Under the pieces are notes generated by a model that saw only the letters and a program-made list of their open reading frames with translations, was not told where the DNA came from and made no database searches. This document shows, in pieces, positions 1 through 40,092 of a DNA stretch of 64,000 nt. This stretch comes from Bacteroidota bacterium (GTDB lineage: Bacteria > Bacteroidota > Ignavibacteria > Palsa-1295): assembly GCA_030706745.1 (NCBI GenBank), contig JAUZNX010000006.1, positions 1-64,000 on the forward strand. Direction: 5' to 3'. How positions within the stretch are numbered: the stretch's first letter is position 1; each line of letters opens with the position of its first letter. Made by a program: the position numbers and the translations under genes.

Positions 1-233
1 TCCGGAACAGGGTCGATAATGCATCTAACAGTATCGCCGCTAAGGAACGGTGAAGTTCACCACGCTTCTGCTACACTCCGTCTGTTGCGGTTTATATACC
101 GTAACAAAGGCTGCTACAGAATGTGAGCAGTATACAAGGGACGAAGTATTTTGTAGCCTTGGGATTTTGTATTATATTACGTATAGGTTGATGGGCACCA
201 TGTCGAGTAGACATGTGTCCTTACCTATGACCA

Positions 234-686
234 ATGGCATTAGCACAATTAGAATTTGAGGTTACCCCGAAGAAGCGCAGCGCGAAGCCCTTCCTTAAGT
301 GGGCTGGCGGCAAGAATAGCCTTTTGCCCGTTCTGTCGAAGTACGTCCCGAAGGAATTTCGAAAGTACGTTGAGCCATTCGTGGGAGGCGGCGCTCTCTT
401 TTTTTCCATCCAGCCAGAGCAAGGAATAATCGGCGACGAGAATGCAGAGCTAATCGCCTGTTATGAGGCGGTTAGGGATAATCCTGAAGAACTCATCGCG
501 TTGCTTTCAAAGTATCGTGTCTCATCCGAGGAGTTCTACCGCGTACGCGCTCAGAACCCAAGGGTGCTCTCCGGCCCCGAACGAGCGGCACGAATGATCT
601 ACTTGAATAAGACGTGCTTTAACGGATTGTATCGTGTCAATCGTTACGGTCAATTCAATACGCCGTTCAGTTGCCTACTGAATTAG
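234..686 (+). pseudogene. dam: N-terminal fragment of a Dam-type adenine-N6 DNA methyltransferase
   Basis: The 150-residue product matches the first half of DpnM/Dam-class methylases, which normally run to about 270 residues. The AdoMet-binding motif X (FLKWAGGK, residues 20-27), motif I (PFVGGGALFF, 48-57) and the conserved YLNKTCFNGLYRVN stretch (about 123-136) are all present. The reading frame leaves the family right after FNTPF (141-145), and a TAG follows four codons later. The target-recognition region and the catalytic DPPY motif are therefore missing, so the product cannot be an active methylase. The next gene, a DpnI-like nuclease, starts within a few bases of the break. The neat join suggests that the 3' half of dam was replaced by the nuclease gene. 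The start is the ATG in front of ALAQLEFEV. Identification as a Dam fragment is firm; its loss of function is an inference. Confidence 0.85.
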
Positions 687-691
687 AGGGT

Positions 692-1477
692 ATGGAACGA
701 GCAGCACCAATTCTTTCTCTTCAAAGCGCCCTTGCCACGAACTACAAGAGTAATTCTCAACGAGCGCGAGTCCTAACTGAACCGTGGGTTGAAGAGAATG
801 TGTATTGCCCCGCTTGCGGGTCTGAGCTAAGAAGATTTCCGAACGGCTCTCCATTGGCCGACTTGTTTTGCCCAGGATGCAACGAACAATACGAGCTAAA
901 GAGCAAAGCTGGTGTTTTTGGCTCCTCTGTTGCGGATGGAGCCTATGCTAAGAAGGTTGAACGGCTAAGCAGCAATACCAATCCGAGTCTATTCTTGTTA
1001 TCATATCGGGCCAGTGACCTCCGAATTCTGAGTCTGGTTGTAATACCAAAATTCTTTTTCGTCCCAAGAATAATTCGCGACCGACCGCCCTTATCCGCGT
1101 CGGCACGTCGTGCGGGATGGATTGGTTCGATTATCAAGATCGACCAAGTGCCCGATGTAGGAAAGATCTCCATGATTCAGGATGGGAAATTGTTGCATAG
1201 GCCTGATGTGCTCAAACAATGGGAGAGGACTGATTTCTTATCTTCGCGAAAATCAATCGAAAGGAGGTCATGGCTGATTGACACGCTGGAATGTATTGAG
1301 CGAATCAAATCGGCGCGTTTTAGATTGGCGGATGTCTATTCTTTTGAAGGGCTGCTATCTCGCCGACATCCTGAGAATCGACACGTTCGTGATAAGGTAC
1401 GTCAGCAACTTCAGGTGCTGCGTGATCAAGGGCTGATTCGCTTCTTAGGGGACGGCTTATATGAGAAAATGAAGTAA
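692..1477 (+). CDS. dpnC: DpnI-like endonuclease cutting methylated GATC
   Basis: The product is about 261 residues (DpnI has 254). It carries the DpnI landmarks: YKSNSQRARVLTE (18-30), a four-Cys zinc site (C39, C42, C60, C63), the PD-(D/E)XK catalytic residues D57, E68 and K70 within PLAD...YELKSK, and SARRAGWIG in the middle. A C-terminal winged helix ends in RQQLQVLRDQGLI, the second methyl-adenine-reading domain in DpnI. DpnI cuts GATC only when the adenine is methylated, so it can live only in a host without Dam activity; the broken dam just upstream fits this. The ATG at 692 is preferred because it gives a DpnI-like N-terminus. A TTG at 671 in the same frame would add seven residues and overlap the dam fragment. 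The family call is strong. Confidence 0.92.
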   Translation: MERAAPILSLQSALATNYKSNSQRARVLTEPWVEENVYCPACGSELRRFPNGSPLADLFCPGCNEQYELKSKAGVFGSSVADGAYAKKVERLSSNTNPSLFLLSYRASDLRILSLVVIPKFFFVPRIIRDRPPLSASARRAGWIGSIIKIDQVPDVGKISMIQDGKLLHRPDVLKQWERTDFLSSRKSIERRSWLIDTLECIERIKSARFRLADVYSFEGLLSRRHPENRHVRDKVRQQLQVLRDQGLIRFLGDGLYEKMK

Positions 1478-1515
1478 CGAACAGTGATCTTGAACCAATA
1501 CCTCACAATCACACC

Positions 1516-1776
1516 ATGGCTAGTATCGCAATTGAACTAAAAGCTGTCCAAGCCCAAGAATTCAAACCAGTTTCTCTGTTTTGGAAAGACGAAGATGAAG
1601 ATGCTGATGGTGAGCCAATCGGGCCTCTATATTGTGTCAATGAACGTGGTGTTCCCCGCAAGTTTGAAGAGGTCTTCAATGGCGGCACAGATGGGCTGCC
1701 GCTGGCAAAATGGCTCTTGTTAAGTGGGGCAGAGGAAATCGCTGAAAGGCTTGGTCTCGATCTTGAGACATTCTAA
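1516..1776 (+). CDS. small acidic protein of unknown function
   Basis: An 86-residue reading frame starts with ATG 38 bp after the DpnI-like gene and on the same strand. The product is acidic, with a DEDEDADGE run at about residues 25-33, and has no signal peptide or membrane segment. I do not recognise the family. It sits where accessory genes of Dpn-type cassettes occur, but no homology to DpnD is evident. It could also be the N-terminal part of a gene split by the transposase element that begins about 55 bp downstream, since a nuclease-like reading frame without a clear start lies on the far side of that element. Coding status rests on position, start codon and composition only. Confidence 0.5.
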   Translation: MASIAIELKAVQAQEFKPVSLFWKDEDEDADGEPIGPLYCVNERGVPRKFEEVFNGGTDGLPLAKWLLLSGAEEIAERLGLDLETF

Positions 1777-1783
1777 ACGGGGT

Positions 1784-1801
1784 GCGGAAACGGTGCTTCC
1801 A
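1784..1801. repeat. degenerate third copy of the REP hairpin
   Basis: GCGGAAACGGTGCTTCC-type sequence resembling the REP core GGAAGCGCTGCTTCC found at both ends of the transposase gene. The left arm has one change and the hairpin would be imperfect. It lies about 35 bp outside the left REP. Confidence 0.45.
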
Positions 1802-1830
1802 TACGAGCGGGAAGAGAAGGAATCCTGATT

Positions 1831-1855
1831 GTGTGGACGGAAGCGCTGCTTCCGT
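1831..1855 (+). repeat. left REP palindrome of the RAYT element
   Basis: GTGTG is followed by a hairpin with arms ACGGAAGC and GCTTCCGT (1837-1844 and 1848-1855) around loop GCT. The same unit occurs in inverted orientation at 2437-2461, so the transposase gene is bracketed by inverted REP-like ends of about 25 bp. This is the organisation known for RAYT genes and the REPs they mobilise. Confidence 0.8.
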
Positions 1856-1861
1856 CATCTC

Positions 1862-2422
1862 TCAGTCGAAGCCCTTGAGGTCAGGGCTGAGATAAGTGTG
1901 AGGATAGTCTTGCCATCGCTTGCAGAGTCCGGCCTTGAGAGGATTATTCAAGATATACCATATCACTTTTCCGAAACGGCCTCTGCGAATTACATGGTCA
2001 TACCCTTCGTGCAACCAGAAGTCGCCTTGACGACCAAGCACCTTATTACACGCGACCGCCGTGAAAGACTTCAATTGTTGAAGTACCCGATCTAGTGTCA
2101 AATCACCTGTGAGCGTGATTACCATATGGACATGGTTCGACATGATTGTATACGCGTGAAGTTCGTACTGCCTCTTGTCGCGGTGATGAATTGCTTCCTT
2201 GACAATGGCTGCGATCCGCTCATCCTTCAACCAGTGAGGGCCGTGAGTCATGGTGTCCAGCACGCGGTCGTATTCGAGGAATTGTCGCTTCAGAAGAAGC
2301 AACGCGAGGTGTTCATGGTCCTTCGGTTCTGAACTGGCAAGTCGAAACGTCAGGAAGTATGGCCGGTCATTGGGGAGGTAATGTGGTAGTGCTCCGTGGT
2401 AATAAGGTTTGGTCTCACGCAT
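1862..2422 (-). CDS. REP-associated tyrosine transposase (RAYT, Y1/IS200-like HUH family)
   Basis: A 186-residue single-domain HUH transposase. It has the FLTFRL opening strand (23-28), SNHVHMVI with the metal-binding histidines H97 and H99, and a candidate catalytic tyrosine Y141 in GYDHVIRRGRFGKV. The NNPLKAGL segment (159-166) is typical of RAYTs. RAYTs cut and join single-stranded DNA at REP hairpins; they are usually single-copy genes domesticated by the host and not multicopy insertion sequences. Inverted REP palindromes lie 6 bp beyond the stop codon and about 14 bp upstream of the start. The ATG giving MRETKPYYHG is chosen because the frame upstream of it runs through the REP sequence. 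All expected residues are present, so it may be active. Confidence 0.9.
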   Translation of the reverse strand: MRETKPYYHGALPHYLPNDRPYFLTFRLASSEPKDHEHLALLLLKRQFLEYDRVLDTMTHGPHWLKDERIAAIVKEAIHHRDKRQYELHAYTIMSNHVHMVITLTGDLTLDRVLQQLKSFTAVACNKVLGRQGDFWLHEGYDHVIRRGRFGKVIWYILNNPLKAGLCKRWQDYPHTYLSPDLKGFD

Positions 2423-2938
2423 GGTGCAAAAATAACGCGGAAGCAGCGCTTCCGCGCACACGGGTGCAATTTTATTCTTGGTCGTCAGCCTCAGGCACGT
2501 CGAGTAAGGAAGAGTGAGGAAGCGATTCAGTATTTTGTCGATCAGGCTTCAAGGGAGCGGGCAAACTCGGTGCATCGTGATCTTGTCAATCTGATGGCAG
2601 AGAAGATTCGCAAACATGGTGCCGTGCCACGCATGAACCGGTATGTAGATCTCTCTGCGAAGATAGGAGACCAAAACTATCTTTTTGAAATGAAGTCAAC
2701 GACCGAGACAAAAGTGCATCATCAGGCGCGTCGCGGTCTTTCGCAACTCTACGAGTATCGGTACATTCAGAATGTGCCCGATGCTAAATTGGTACTCGTT
2801 CTCGAATCCCCTCTTCCAGGTAAGATGGCCTGGATGTCCGACTATCTACTCAAGGATAGGAATGTGCTGCTTGTGTGGGATGGCAACAATCGATTCTACT
2901 GCCCGGAAAGTATTTCCGATCAGCTGACTTTTATCTAA
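2396..2938 (+). CDS. 5'-truncated PD-(D/E)XK nuclease-like protein
   Basis: The frame is 180 residues long, but its first 25 or so are read through the transposase start region and the REP in antisense and are unlikely to be native. From about residue 30 (GRQPQARRVRK) it looks like a real protein. VDL (D85), a GDQNYLFEMKS strand with E98 and K100, and a following RGLSQLYEYRY helix form the order seen in PD-(D/E)XK nuclease folds. A strand LVLVLESPL and LLVWDGNNRFYCP follow. The family is not recognised further. No good start codon exists downstream of the REP before the conserved part, so the natural 5' end was probably displaced when the RAYT element inserted. Function, and even expression, is uncertain; a restriction or defence role is suggested only by the DpnI-like neighbour. 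Confidence 0.5.
   Translation: MVIRFGLTHGAKITRKQRFRAHGCNFILGRQPQARRVRKSEEAIQYFVDQASRERANSVHRDLVNLMAEKIRKHGAVPRMNRYVDLSAKIGDQNYLFEMKSTTETKVHHQARRGLSQLYEYRYIQNVPDAKLVLVLESPLPGKMAWMSDYLLKDRNVLLVWDGNNRFYCPESISDQLTFI
2436..2461 (-). repeat. right REP palindrome of the RAYT element
   Basis: Perfect hairpin with 9-bp arms CGCGGAAGC (2436-2444) and GCTTCCGCG (2448-2456) around loop AGC, followed by CACAC. Its reverse complement matches the left REP including the GTGTG flank, so the two copies face each other across the transposase gene. Confidence 0.82.
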
Positions 2939-3362
2939 TTTTCGAGGGCTACCCGCCCCGGCGGGCAGGCACATATTTCGTCCCTAACGGGACTGATGTG
3001 GTGCTTCCCCGTTGGCGCTGGGAAGGCCGTCAAGATGAATTCTTGCTAATGAATCTCAAAACCTGCGATGCCGGGAGGGTCGAACAACGTTGTATTAGAT
3101 GGAAGGGGTCTGCTCCACTAAAAGCATGAAAGATGAAGTATGAAATATGAATTGTTTTTTATTTGTGCCTAAGTATATAAATATTTGATGTCGCTGCAAC
3201 ATCAGGAGGGTCGATCCTTGTTATATTGGGTGGAAGGGGGCCGCTTCGCTTCGCGAATGAGGAATGAGGAATTAGGAATGACAAAAATGGTTTGGCATTC
3301 TCCCTGTAAGTCCTGTAATGTCAATCTTTTATGGAGAGTGTGCGATGGATTGATGTCACTTT

Positions 3363-3478
3363 GATGTTATATTAATAGGGGGGTTCTCTTCAGATTCCGA
3401 TTCGGTGAACTGGTCTGCACTTGCTGATAGGCACTTGCCTTAAGGCAATGCACTACTTGGGACTGGCGGAATGCGAGA
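3363..3478 (+). repeat. dispersed repeat, copy 1 (decayed coding remnant?)
   Basis: It shares ATTCCGATTCGGTGAACTGG, CTGCACT and ACTTGGGACTGGCGGAA, in the same order, with 50738-50824. The spacing between the last two blocks is 5 bp shorter here, which shifts the frame relative to the other copy. In the other copy the segment reads openly as protein (NSDSVNW...LGLAE), so both may be remnants of one gene. Confidence 0.65.
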
Positions 3479-3510
3479 AGAGATGGATAGTCCAGCTAAC
3501 CACCCCCCAG

Positions 3511-3543
3511 CCCCCTCCTTTTCGCTTCGCTCATAGGAGGGGG
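3511..3543 (-). terminator. hairpin downstream of the fibre-like gene
   Basis: Eight-bp stem CCCCCTCC/GGAGGGGG around a 17-nt loop, just beyond the stop codon of the minus-strand gene. There is no clear T run, so it is either a weak terminator or part of a dispersed G-rich repeat. Confidence 0.35.
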
Positions 3544-3546
3544 AGT

Positions 3547-6500
3547 TTACCTCGACTTATTGACGATCATGTATCCAACGCGGAGCTTATCGTTGCTGGA
3601 ATAATTCGAGGCGCTGGTCACGGTGGGCAGCATCTTGATGCGAATCTTGAACGAGCCGCCCGCGACGTTATCGGCGTTGACGATGAAGGCCGCATCCTGC
3701 GGGTTAGGAGCAGCGCCATCATCGATCATGGCGACGACGTTCGTGAGCACGATCGAGCCAGTCTGGCAGTAGCGGTTATTGATCGTGACTGCGCCCAAAT
3801 CCTGGACTTGGCTGGCCGTCGGCGCGGCGGTGTGGAGATCGCCGGAAGGACCAAGCGAGAACTCGATGATTCCGCTGGGTCCCTGCTGAGTGTATGCTGT
3901 GCCGCCGGTGGCAGGCTCCACATCGGTGCCGACGCTGGGTGATTCGGTGGTGCGGCCCACGGCCAGTTCGCCATCGTTCACCTGCAATGCCACGTTGGTA
4001 TTGCCGGCGATGGCGTTGCCATTACCGGTAGCGAGCACGCCAATCGTGCCGGTGTTGGAGCTCGAGTTATTCGAGGCTCGGCCCCATACGCCAATGGCTT
4101 GATTGGATGTCGAAGCCGAGGCCAGGCCGTAGGCTGCTGCGATTTCGTCAGTGGTGCCCGCGTAGACGCTGTGCAGCGGATGCGCCGGAGCATTGGTGTT
4201 AATGCCGAGACGCGAGTTGGCATTATCCCAGACGAGATTGGTTGACCATGCCATCGCGCTGGGCAAGGCCGAACTGGCAAGCAGCAGATTGCCACTTGCC
4301 ACAGGCGCGGCAGTTGGCAGCGTATAGCTGATGTCATTCGACTGCGAGCCGGCAGCAATGCTGGTGTAGTGCGTGGAAGCCGCCGGGAATCCAACGCCGC
4401 CATTTTGCGGAGAGTACCACCGGAGTTGGCTCGGCGTATTATTGGTATTGCCAAGCCAAAGGTTGACATTGCCGAAGAAGGCGGTGTTGCTCGAGCTGAC
4501 GAAGGCGCTATCGGTGGAGGACGAGCCAGCATGGAATCCGAACGATCGGCTGCCGGTAAGTCGCAAGTATCCGCCGCCGGCGATCGTCGAGTTTTGCGCG
4601 GCAACATAATTGTTGACTCCAGTGATGATCGCTGCATTGCTGGAGTTGACATCGATATAGCCATACTGGCCACCGAGAATGACAGAGTTATCTGCATAGG
4701 AGGTATCATCCCATCCGCCGATGACAGCAGCACCAGTATGGAGCGTGCCGCCGGCAAGACCTGCGATGCCTCCACCGATGAAGGAATTGAGGTATGCCGT
4801 ATTATTGACACCACCAATGACAGCACCATCATCGCCGCGAACGATATTATGATTTCCTCCGGCAGCAACACCGCCGAAGGCACTCGACGTTATGGTATCG
4901 CTGTAACCGCCGCCGATAAATGAGTTGTCAGCGGCGATAAGGTTCAACTCGCCACCGGCGATAACGCTGACCTCATTGGAGACTTTGCTGCCGTAGCTTG
5001 CGATGATGCCACTGAAATCCCCGGCAGTAGTGATGGTATCCGCGGCACCACCAAGTATGGTGGCATAGCTCGCAGCAATGCGGTTCTGCTGGCCAAAGCC
5101 GATGAAGGAGGCTGTATCGCCAGAGGCGATTGTATTATCGGTAGCACCGCCAATTGCGCTGGCGACACCAGTGTTATTCGAAGGCTGCACACGAAGCGCC
5201 TGCTGATTATTGACGCGAAGTGTGAAAGGAATATTATCAGTGGTGCCGAGGAAGTTGGTGCCGTCAGTCGTGCCGGAGTTGCCGGAAAGGGACCAGTTGT
5301 TCGCAGTTGGCGATGTCCAGCCGAGTGCTACATTATATGGTCCGGTGCCAGAGATGGAGGAGGCGGTGAGTACTTGATTGGCAGAAGGCTGAGAGGTTGG
5401 AAGGATGTATGAGATCGAGGAAGTCTGACTTCCTGCTTTGATCGCACTATAGTTGGAGCCGGAGAAATTCTCAACGGTATTCGGCGCATAGAATCGAACT
5501 GCACGGGACGCTCCGTCAATGTTGCCGATCCAGAGATCGACATCGCCAAAGAAAGAGATATGGCTAAAAGCAGAGAGATCGACAAGCGGGCTGGTGGGTT
5601 GATCGGCATTATAGCCAAAGCTCTTAGTTCCAAGCTGAAGGTAGCCGCCACCGGGAACAGCCGACCAATCTCCGGCCCGATTCCCGTTACCACCACCGAT
5701 GGAGGCGTATATATTTTGCGCCCAATTCGAGCGACCACCACTTACAACAGAAGCATAGCCTTGCGCATTATTGGACGTACCACCCGCGACTGTTGCTTCT
5801 CCGTTACCTCCGCCAGCAGTGTTGTTATTACCTCCGCTGATGGTGCTGTATGCACCATCGGCATAATTGCGATAGGATGCTGCGCCATACACGCCTCCAC
5901 CACCAGCGATCGTTGCACCATACGTGCCAGCCGAAACAGCATTGGTATGATTGCCAAGGATCATGTTGGGCGCTCCAGATATCGGTTCTATTCGCAAGAC
6001 ACGTCCACGTCCATCAGATGTGGCGGCTGCTTCATACACATGAATCTCGAATGCCTGGTTGTCCTGCGTGCCGACATAGTTGGTCCCGGCAGTGGTGCCG
6101 CTGTTACCGGTGAGATTCCAGTCCGTCCCAACGCCGCCGTTCGTCCAGCCGAGCGTGACCGCATACGGACCAGCGCCAGTGACTGCCGTTGCCGAAAGCA
6201 CTTGATTCGCGGAAGGCTGCGATGTCGGCAGCGTGTAGTTAATCGTGGCGGATTGGGAGCTAGCCGCGAAGCTCGAATAAAAACGTGCAGGATAGTTCAG
6301 ACTCGTACTTGGCGCAAAAAATCGAATTGCTCGCGACGAATTGTCCGTGTTGCCGAGCCAAAGGTCCATATTACCAAGGTAGGCAAGATGATTGGACGAG
6401 GAAAGGTCGAGAATACCAGACTGAGCACCATTACCAGGTACGTTGACGCCCAAACTCATTGCACCAAGCGTGAGGGAATCTCCGCCCGGTATTGTGCTGA

Positions 6501-8043
6501 ACTGGCCAGTTGTACGATTGTACAGTCCACCTCCGATGGCAGAGAAATCAGAGGAAGGAGAAATTCGGTTACCTCCACCGCCCGCGACGGTCGAAATGCT
6601 CCCGGCTGCGGAATCGCCGATACCTCCTGCGACACTAGCATAGTCTCCACTGGCGGTATTTGTCGAGCCACCGCCAACAGTCGCCGCAACGCCGCCCGCA
6701 ATATTACTGGCCCCACCCAGGACCGATGCGTAAGTCCCGCTAGCGGTATTGCCGCCGCCGCCACCGACTGTCGCGTGGCTCGCATCGACAGTTGAGCCGT
6801 TACCGTTGCCAGCTTGATTCAACGAGCCGCCGCCGACAAAACTAAAATCATCAGTAACAGAATTAGTAAAGCCATTAAGACCACCACCCGCAATCGTCGC
6901 TCCCACGACAGTACTGCTGACAGAATTACCTTGATACCCGCCGATGAGATTCGCGCTCACGCCATTCGGTTCGTACCGCATGACTCGTTTCGATCCATTC
7001 GCAGGTGCGTCGGTATTGAAAACGTGAATTTCGAACGGCTTATTGTCCAGCGTGCCGAGAAAATTAGTGGGCGGATTGGTGCCAGCGTTTCCCGTCAATG
7101 CCCATCCAGTGATGCCGGCAGTGTTGGAAATCGTAATGGTACCGGCATTGGGTATGATCGAGATGCCAGTGCCGGCACTCAGTATCGCAGTAGTAACGGG
7201 ACTCTGTCCGTTGCCAACCAACACCTGTCCGGACGCGAGAATATTGGTGCCTGTGCCACCATGCGCCACAGGCAAAATTCCCGAGGCACTTCCGAGATCG
7301 ACAGAATCATCCACGATGGTCCATCGCGATCCTTCCCATTTGAAAATCTGTCCTTGGGTGGCACCAGCTTGCGCTAGTTTCGCAGGCGTGATGGCACCGT
7401 TGGCAAGCTTCGGCGTTGTGATCGCGCTATCGGCAACACCAATCAAAACGGTTGGTCCATTCTGGTTCGCAACAGTAATGGTTTTGTCCGGACTAATGAC
7501 TGATTGGATTCCAGATCCGGTAAGAACATTTGCATGAATCGTCAGAACATTGCCATTGATCGAAATCGAGGTTGTGCTATCGCCAACCAAATGCAATGCT
7601 CCGGAAACCTCGTTCACGCTTGTGACCACACCCGAAGCACCGGGCGTGAGACCTTTGGCGAGATCGGCAACGTGCGAGCTGAGAGCATATGGCGCGCTCG
7701 AAAGCGCCGTTCGGGACAACTCTGGAGAGCCATCAATGCTGACACCAAGATAATATGGTCGATCGAATGCGAGCGTACTCGGCAGTGGATTGACCGAGCC
7801 GACAGCAATATCGAACGTGCCATTTGTAACGGCAACCTGCTGGGACTCCTGATAGAGTGGCGTGCCGCCACTCGCTGACGCATAAAGCGCGACGGTAAAT
7901 AGATGCTGACCTGTCATCGCAGCACCGGAGGAAGTTGCCGTACCCTGATAGCTGATCGTGCGTGGAATTTGTGCGCGCACGCCGGACACGCTGCATAAAG
8001 CAGCGATCGTGACCATCAGGCAGTGGCGGATCGTGGACTTCAT
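3547..8043 (-). CDS. giant secreted fibre-like protein with YadA-type head repeats
   Basis: The product is 1,498 residues. A signal peptide (MKSTIRHCLMVTIAALCSVSGVRA) precedes an N-terminal domain of about 130 residues beginning PRTISYQGTATSSG. This domain is shared with the gene that starts at 63764. After a linker, three related modules of roughly 280-350 residues follow. Each has a GNSGT...FLGTxDNxxFEIHV opening and a run of hyaline/YadA-head-like repeats (GGGxxNTASGxYASVxGG). Each then has a DLWLGN...AIRFYAP stretch and a closing SxSxxYxLPTSQPSANQVL. The repeats predict a left-handed beta-roll, as in trimeric adhesins or tail fibres. No T9SS sorting domain or outer-membrane anchor is visible at the C-terminus. 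A role as a surface adhesin or fibre is an inference. The ATG at 8043 is chosen because it opens the signal peptide; upstream frame is unlike a protein. Confidence 0.85.
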   Translation of the reverse strand: MKSTIRHCLMVTIAALCSVSGVRAQIPRTISYQGTATSSGAAMTGQHLFTVALYASASGGTPLYQESQQVAVTNGTFDIAVGSVNPLPSTLAFDRPYYLGVSIDGSPELSRTALSSAPYALSSHVADLAKGLTPGASGVVTSVNEVSGALHLVGDSTTSISINGNVLTIHANVLTGSGIQSVISPDKTITVANQNGPTVLIGVADSAITTPKLANGAITPAKLAQAGATQGQIFKWEGSRWTIVDDSVDLGSASGILPVAHGGTGTNILASGQVLVGNGQSPVTTAILSAGTGISIIPNAGTITISNTAGITGWALTGNAGTNPPTNFLGTLDNKPFEIHVFNTDAPANGSKRVMRYEPNGVSANLIGGYQGNSVSSTVVGATIAGGGLNGFTNSVTDDFSFVGGGSLNQAGNGNGSTVDASHATVGGGGGNTASGTYASVLGGASNIAGGVAATVGGGSTNTASGDYASVAGGIGDSAAGSISTVAGGGGNRISPSSDFSAIGGGLYNRTTGQFSTIPGGDSLTLGAMSLGVNVPGNGAQSGILDLSSSNHLAYLGNMDLWLGNTDNSSRAIRFFAPSTSLNYPARFYSSFAASSQSATINYTLPTSQPSANQVLSATAVTGAGPYAVTLGWTNGGVGTDWNLTGNSGTTAGTNYVGTQDNQAFEIHVYEAAATSDGRGRVLRIEPISGAPNMILGNHTNAVSAGTYGATIAGGGGVYGAASYRNYADGAYSTISGGNNNTAGGGNGEATVAGGTSNNAQGYASVVSGGRSNWAQNIYASIGGGNGNRAGDWSAVPGGGYLQLGTKSFGYNADQPTSPLVDLSAFSHISFFGDVDLWIGNIDGASRAVRFYAPNTVENFSGSNYSAIKAGSQTSSISYILPTSQPSANQVLTASSISGTGPYNVALGWTSPTANNWSLSGNSGTTDGTNFLGTTDNIPFTLRVNNQQALRVQPSNNTGVASAIGGATDNTIASGDTASFIGFGQQNRIAASYATILGGAADTITTAGDFSGIIASYGSKVSNEVSVIAGGELNLIAADNSFIGGGYSDTITSSAFGGVAAGGNHNIVRGDDGAVIGGVNNTAYLNSFIGGGIAGLAGGTLHTGAAVIGGWDDTSYADNSVILGGQYGYIDVNSSNAAIITGVNNYVAAQNSTIAGGGYLRLTGSRSFGFHAGSSSTDSAFVSSSNTAFFGNVNLWLGNTNNTPSQLRWYSPQNGGVGFPAASTHYTSIAAGSQSNDISYTLPTAAPVASGNLLLASSALPSAMAWSTNLVWDNANSRLGINTNAPAHPLHSVYAGTTDEIAAAYGLASASTSNQAIGVWGRASNNSSSNTGTIGVLATGNGNAIAGNTNVALQVNDGELAVGRTTESPSVGTDVEPATGGTAYTQQGPSGIIEFSLGPSGDLHTAAPTASQVQDLGAVTINNRYCQTGSIVLTNVVAMIDDGAAPNPQDAAFIVNADNVAGGSFKIRIKMLPTVTSASNYSSNDKLRVGYMIVNKSR

Positions 8044-8265
8044 GGACGCCTCAGTTTTGGGAATACTCCGCTGACATAAGACATATTTCAGTCCCAAAAA
8101 GTATCCACCTGTACACTGAGGATTTTGCCATTTCAAGGGAGCGGGGTCCATTCAGCAATTTCGTCATTTTCCGCCAATCTTTTTCGCCACTTGTGCGTTC
8201 TGTGCGCGACTTCAAGAACAGCCGGGTCTCTCCGCTGTCCATAATGTTCAGGAATACGTGACCGT

Positions 8266-39747: not shown

Positions 39748-40092
39748 CTACTTGACTTGCTTTACAAGTTGCGCGAACACATCGGAGTGATGATACGCGA
39801 TGTCGGCCAGCATCTTCCGGTTGAGTGTGATGCCCTTCTTGGCGAGCGCGCCCATCAGACGGGAGTATGTCGTGCCATTCTCACGGGCGGCGGCATTGAT
39901 GCGGACGATCCATAGCGAACGGAAGTCGCGCTTCCGGACTCGGCGATCACGATATGCGAACTGACGCGCCTTATCAATGCGACTCTTGGCAACGGTATGG
40001 ACGTTGCCGGCCATTCCAAAGAAGCCCTTCGAGGCTTCAAGGAGTTTTTTCCGGCGGTGCTTGGCTGCTGGTAGATTTTTAGCTCTTGGCAT
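39748..40092 (-). CDS. rplT: 50S ribosomal protein L20
   Basis: The 114-residue protein is typical L20: MPRAKNL, then the helical RNA-binding N-terminus (KHRRKKLLEASKGFFGMAGNV...YRDRRVRKRDFRSLWIVRINAA) and a globular end (YSRLMGALAKKGITLNRKMLADIA). It helps early 50S assembly. It follows rpmI, as usual. The normal upstream partner infC is not adjacent; it lies about 10 kb away at 50846. Confidence 0.99.
   Translation of the reverse strand: MPRAKNLPAAKHRRKKLLEASKGFFGMAGNVHTVAKSRIDKARQFAYRDRRVRKRDFRSLWIVRINAAARENGTTYSRLMGALAKKGITLNRKMLADIAYHHSDVFAQLVKQVK

Follow-up and report, generated by a model that had tools for sequence, protein, structure and literature searches.

A DpnI-type nuclease segment probably replaced the central part of a Type II restriction-modification operon in a bacterium of the class Ignavibacteria

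How can a bacterium pass from marking its own DNA to cutting DNA that carries the mark? If a system that methylates GATC is exchanged for a nuclease directed at the methylated site, the cell should die, as has been stated for pneumococcus (PMC3573125). The question is raised anew by a locus of a Bacteroidota genome in which a DpnI-type nuclease gene directly follows the broken half of a dam-type methylase gene. The locus lies at the left end of the window, by which we mean the whole stretch of 64,000 nucleotides that was analyzed. Because the window shows no avoidance of GATC (414 sites, an observed/expected ratio of 0.94 counted over the 64 kb), an active Dam and an active DpnI would be lethal together.

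The upstream gene (positions 234 to 686, forward strand) consists of 145 dam-derived codons without an internal stop, five junction codons and a TAG, and encodes 150 amino acids. It matches the D12 family (Pfam PF02086, E = 5.8e−32) over profile positions 1 to 135 of 253 and the NCBIfam model TIGR00571, "dam" (E = 3.1e−46), over positions 2 to 134 of 267. What remains is thus the 5′ half of an adenine methylase gene of the dam/DpnM type. It retains FLKWAGGK (motif X) and EPFVGGG (motif I) but, of the target-recognition hairpin, only the first strand (NGLYRVN..GQFNTPF); the remainder of this hairpin, the DPPY of motif IV and all downstream parts are absent, and the methyltransferase core is incomplete, with the D12 profile positions past 140 of 253 missing. 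Because DPPY and the C-terminal half are missing, the fragment cannot methylate. These profile matches bear out the initial annotation, which had recognized a Dam-type gene with motifs X and I but without DPPY. It had also placed the break just before target recognition; DPPY is indeed absent, but the break falls inside the recognition hairpin.

The downstream gene (692 to 1477, forward strand) encodes a complete DpnI-type methyl-dependent restriction endonuclease, in which the PF06044 domain (E = 2e−64) is followed by the winged-helix methyl-DNA sensor domain PF17726 (residues 197 to 266, E = 5.5e−28). The protein matches the PADLOC model mREase_II (E = 9e−91), aligns with the DpnI structure 4esj over nearly its whole length (E = 1.8e−68) and is up to 49% identical to its homologues. 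At such E-values, chance is no issue for the matches of either gene. In an alignment with 4esj and nine homologues, the PD-(D/E)XK catalytic residues (D53, E64, K66) are kept, as are L129, R135 and W138, with G140, of the methyl-binding cleft and the K/R of the winged helix; the corresponding cleft and catalytic residues of R.DpnI have been reported (PMC4117772). The enzyme is predicted to cleave Gm6ATC and not GATC.

The likely start of the nuclease gene is the ATG at 692, placed 5 nucleotides after the TAG of the dam fragment, as expected from the earlier claim that a complete DpnI-like gene begins within a few bases of the dam stop; a TTG at 671 is a possible alternative. Homologues start about five codons further in, so that the first codons of the window gene appear to be junction sequence. 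A Shine-Dalgarno-like GAGGG stands very close to the ATG. A frameshift fusion of the two genes is not favored because the nuclease gene has its own ATG. The remnant had further been described as in frame, which is right insofar as the dam frame is open up to the junction but not for the pair, as the two open reading frames (ORFs) are in different reading frames.

A comparison among 100 relatives included a same-genus genome, G003, with an intact operon of three genes: a dam gene (M1, 281 amino acids), a second D12 methylase gene (M2, 321 amino acids) and a gene for a 339-amino-acid protein (R). The G003 Dam is DpnM-like (2dpm, E = 2e−67), and M1 and M2 match the two halves of a single PADLOC two-methylase Type II model (PDLC03261, 643 positions). 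R is probably a PD-(D/E)XK restriction nuclease, as judged from a D..ExK pattern, its context and weak fold matches; its AlphaFold model has a mean pLDDT of 49 and is useful only for residues ~205 to 300. A relative of R adjoins a C5 methylase in another genome (G024). With two methylases and a probable nuclease together, the three genes form a Type II restriction-modification operon, and the presence of two methylases suggests a non-palindromic target that may only contain GATC.

The window preserves both ends of this operon. On the left, the dam fragment is 78% identical in amino acid sequence to residues 1 to 145 of the G003 Dam; the break follows codon 145, and nucleotide similarity ends at position 668. 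The 5′ leader of the old operon is also present (167 to 233, forward strand), with ~65 bp alignable to the G003 leader (L077, 8913 to 8848) and with TTGTATTATATTA identical in the two. This leader is presumably the promoter region; promoter prediction, which found 6 promoter-like sites versus 3.2 expected, was not relied on. On the right, 1 kb beyond the nuclease gene, a remnant of the third gene (2486 to 2938, stop included, forward strand) corresponds to the last 150 codons of R (residues 190 to 339; 78% amino acid identity, E = 2.3e−75), and its nucleotide alignment to the end of the G003 gene spans 2492 to 2938. It holds the C-terminal PD-(D/E)XK domain of this probable nuclease, with D244, E257 and K259 conserved, a weak match to PDDEXK_9 (E = 0.009) and weak fold matches to XisH and Hjc. 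The two flanks are equally identical to G003 at the protein level (78%) and have similar pN/pS values (0.15 and 0.16), and neither relic contains a stop codon.

Between the two relics lie the nuclease gene, an 86-amino-acid ORF (1516 to 1776, forward strand; third-position G+C content [GC3] 0.40) with no match in Pfam, NCBIfam or PADLOC, and a RAYT-type (Y1_Tnp) transposase gene (1862 to 2461, reverse strand; PF01797, E = 9e−7). On either side of the RAYT gene stands a REP-like palindrome (1838 to 2454 for the whole arrangement), CGGAAGCgctGCTTCCG on the left (1838 to 1854, unstranded) and CGGAAGCagcGCTTCCG on the right (2438 to 2454, unstranded), and the two have identical arms; a third, similar one is found at 39920, and by palindrome count the window holds 3 versus 0.02 expected. 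The GC3 of the nuclease gene is 0.47, versus 0.59 for the dam piece and ~0.58 for a large neighboring gene, a difference that fits a later arrival of the nuclease gene. Searches for relatives of the DpnI-type protein returned, in IMG/VR, only winged-helix relatives belonging to other proteins; in collections of phages and plasmids, the matches were confined to Neisseria chromosomes and isolated winged-helix domains. The dam fragment has a viral relative, an intact orphan Dam that has no DpnI in its vicinity.

We propose that a segment carrying the DpnI-type gene replaced the central part of such a restriction-modification operon. We regard this replacement as real with good confidence, and as a variant of dam replacement that has not been described before. 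The old operon would have had the order M1, M2, R, and a foreign segment, made up of the DpnI-type gene, the 86-amino-acid ORF and the REP-flanked RAYT gene, would have replaced everything from dam codon 146 to about R codon 190. The cell would thereby have lost the enzymes methylating GATC-containing sites and the nuclease cutting unmethylated sites, and gained a nuclease expected to cut Gm6ATC. Because the methylases and R were lost as DpnI was gained, the cell's own unmethylated DNA would be spared and incoming Dam-methylated DNA destroyed; the host would be safe from DpnI because it no longer methylates. The original proposal, that the nuclease gene took the place of the 3′ half of dam, is supported but proves too narrow, as the whole of M2 and the first half of R are gone as well.

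In the proposed arrangement, the old promoter would drive the dam fragment and then, through coupled translation, the nuclease gene, so that the dam 5′ half, with its stop just ahead of the nuclease ATG, would probably serve as a transcription and translation leader. Translational coupling itself, suggested by the spacing but weighed against by the Shine-Dalgarno-like GAGGG near the ATG, has in our estimate about an even chance of being correct. The exchange may have occurred within this lineage in one step, or the chimera may have been imported ready-made. In G003, the operon is located between yceI/murB and HNH/rhomboid/ispG, so the suggested search of relatives for an intact dam succeeded within the genus, but at another chromosomal site. 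In the window genome, yceI and murB are together on a different contig, C4, and the operon is absent there. Given these locations, the operon is likely mobile. In a simulation of neutral drift, 0 stops in both relics are expected if fewer than ~0.1 substitutions per site have accumulated since the break; the break is therefore young or the relics are constrained. Because dS to G003 is saturated, an in-place switch is not datable against that genome.

A profile search of the genome for D12 recovered the dam fragment as the only match, and no methylase of the PF05869 type was found. Matches to PF01555 comprised an orphan methylase, only 25% identical to a DpnA-like protein, and, at a separate locus on C4, a gene resembling a Type III Mod gene. 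An intact Dam elsewhere in the genome, which would have spoken against the initial annotation, was thus not encountered by sequence in any of the three families, and the genome appears to have no other clear GATC methylase. Host DNA would accordingly be expected to be unmethylated at GATC. Both junctions, the loss of the motifs, the intact nuclease gene and the lack of another clear Dam are evident at the level of sequence.

The arrangement recurs elsewhere. DpnI genes from several phyla were screened for adjacent dam pieces, and the DpnI proteins of the 53 scored loci besides the window fall into 18 clusters at 70% identity. In 3 of the 18 clusters (G018/G062, G398 and G1298), a 3′-broken dam is directly upstream of DpnI on the same strand. 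Including the window, the dam stop is within about 17 nucleotides of the DpnI start in all four junctions, and this short spacing suggests that what is kept is the feed of transcription and translation into DpnI. The extent of the break differs: with the same order and strand as in the window, dam lacks only the last ~17 residues in G018/G062 and the last ~10 in G398, where an AlwI-family nuclease is downstream of DpnI, whereas in G1298 it is broken after about profile position 235 and fused in frame to a DpnD-like domain. Of the four, only the window preserves both ends of an old operon.

These loci have features of their own. In G018 (L078, 5680 to 7414) and G062 (L079, 6394 to 8128), dam and DpnI are followed by a DpnA-like gene, with RhuM in between in G018. 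The G398 locus (L080, 4922 to 8247) holds two nucleases of opposite demand, DpnI and the AlwI-family enzyme, behind one damaged methylase. In G1298 (L129, 15 to 1318), the fusion of the dam piece to a DpnD/PcfM-like domain overlaps the DpnI start, and the 5′ end of dam is cut by the contig end. Small, phage-like Dam genes of the PF05869 type adjoin DpnI in three further loci, each in a different genome (L067, 1416 to 1898; L068, 2466 to 2948; L069, 585 to 1067).

Over its first 282 codons, the G018/G062 dam has a dN/dS of 0.057 at a dS of 0.95, and is at least as constrained as DpnI (0.085; the DpnA-like gene has 0.059); all three genes are under strong purifying selection. The predicted fold of this dam product resembles Dam through residue ~276 and has a tail of low confidence, and because the junction tail is common to both genomes, the junction is old. 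This broken dam is either inactive and kept for another role, or its activity is regulated; an active enzyme would be expected to make DpnI lethal to the cell. One could conjecture that 3′ breakage of dam with DpnI right behind is a repeated, selected arrangement, the dam ORF being kept as a translational governor or as a methylation-dead DNA-binding partner. We consider this rather unlikely, but, if true, it would explain both the recurrent broken dams before DpnI and the purifying selection in G018/G062.

For the window itself, the dam fragment might be a selected small protein, such as a regulator that binds SAM or DNA, or a protein that antagonizes the nuclease. Its frame is open over 145 codons, and the low dN/dS in G018/G062 indicates that dam-derived ORFs beside DpnI can be constrained. 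However, the R remnant is equally intact without an obvious use, recent decay within the simulated limit accounts for the lack of stops, and a coupling leader requires only an open frame; we find a selected product improbable. We attach a similarly low probability to an old dam-DpnI operon, of the kind seen in G018/G062, in which a later deletion fused the dam 5′ half to DpnI. DpnI neighbors with a nearly complete dam do exist, but in the closest intact operon that position is occupied by M2 and R instead of DpnI, the G018/G062 dams are only 38 to 39% identical to the window dam, and the GC3 of the nuclease gene differs from those of dam and R.

That the nuclease gene replaced just the 3′ half of a solitary dam, in the manner of drg in Neisseria, agrees with the left-hand break and the loss of the dam 3′ half, both as first described. 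This reading is very improbable, since the remnant at 2486 to 2938 and the dam fragment have their counterparts in one and the same G003 operon. Unless the remnant arrived independently, the replacement went beyond dam, and that dam belonged to a restriction-modification operon. A misjoining of the nuclease gene and its neighbors to dam during assembly or binning is hardly credible, even though only 233 bp of contig precede dam, near a possible repeat, because two independent junctions point to a single operon, with correct order and orientation and equal identity, the contig is 223 kb long in a genome that is 99.5% complete in 30 contigs, and analogous dam-DpnI junctions are found in three other assembled loci and in Neisseria.

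The replacement of the operon's middle is most closely paralleled by drg, the dam-replacing gene of Neisseria (the NmeBII/NgoAXI endonuclease at the leuS-dam locus), likewise a DpnI-type gene of lower G+C content in a dam-type operon with a truncated dam. In four meningococcal strains, drg is inserted within dam, which is truncated (PMC4269198); dam and drg are mutually exclusive in Neisseria (PMC4269198, PMC516771), and two gonococcal strains carry dam in place of drg (PMC6789123). In the window, too, a DpnI-type gene lies inside a dam-type gene that is inactivated thereby. In the gonococcal locus that we inspected (L133, 4917 to 6756), a 3′ dam piece corresponding to E. coli Dam residues 200 to 268 stands directly behind drg, and a DpnA-like gene and a short ORF similar to the DpnIIB-like gene described in PMC4269198 are also found 3′ of drg; the source record of this locus is filed as a plasmid, but at 2.17 Mb it is a chromosome. 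Because drg within a truncated dam has been published and the gonococcal locus keeps the dam 3′ end, the initial statement that no case with the methylase remnant in place had been described does not stand. The two arrangements are mirror images: in Neisseria the 3′ end of dam is behind drg and the 5′ part is lost, whereas in the window the 5′ half and its leader are in front. The window further differs in the relic of the old nuclease 1 kb downstream, the D12 type of the former second methylase and the unrelated host lineage. No leuS is seen among the ORFs of positions 1 to 8151, although the contig reaches only 233 bp upstream of dam.

The pneumococcal DpnI (dpnC-dpnD) and DpnII (dpnM-dpnA-dpnB) systems similarly place opposite methylation demands at one location, and the G003 Dam is DpnM-like. 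However, they are intact alternative cassettes, whereas the window combines a broken modification operon with DpnI in one locus and has no dpnD. The second methylase of G003 is of the D12 type and not of the DpnA (PF01555) type, which sets the old operon apart from DpnII.

The window locus would preserve a step that is expected to be lethal, from marking the cell's own DNA to cutting marked DNA. Because the new gene and the two ends of the former operon share one locus, the extent of the switch can be read there. The recurrence of 3′-broken dam genes before DpnI makes two questions testable: whether the switch always proceeds via dam, and whether expression of the nuclease depends on the dam leader.
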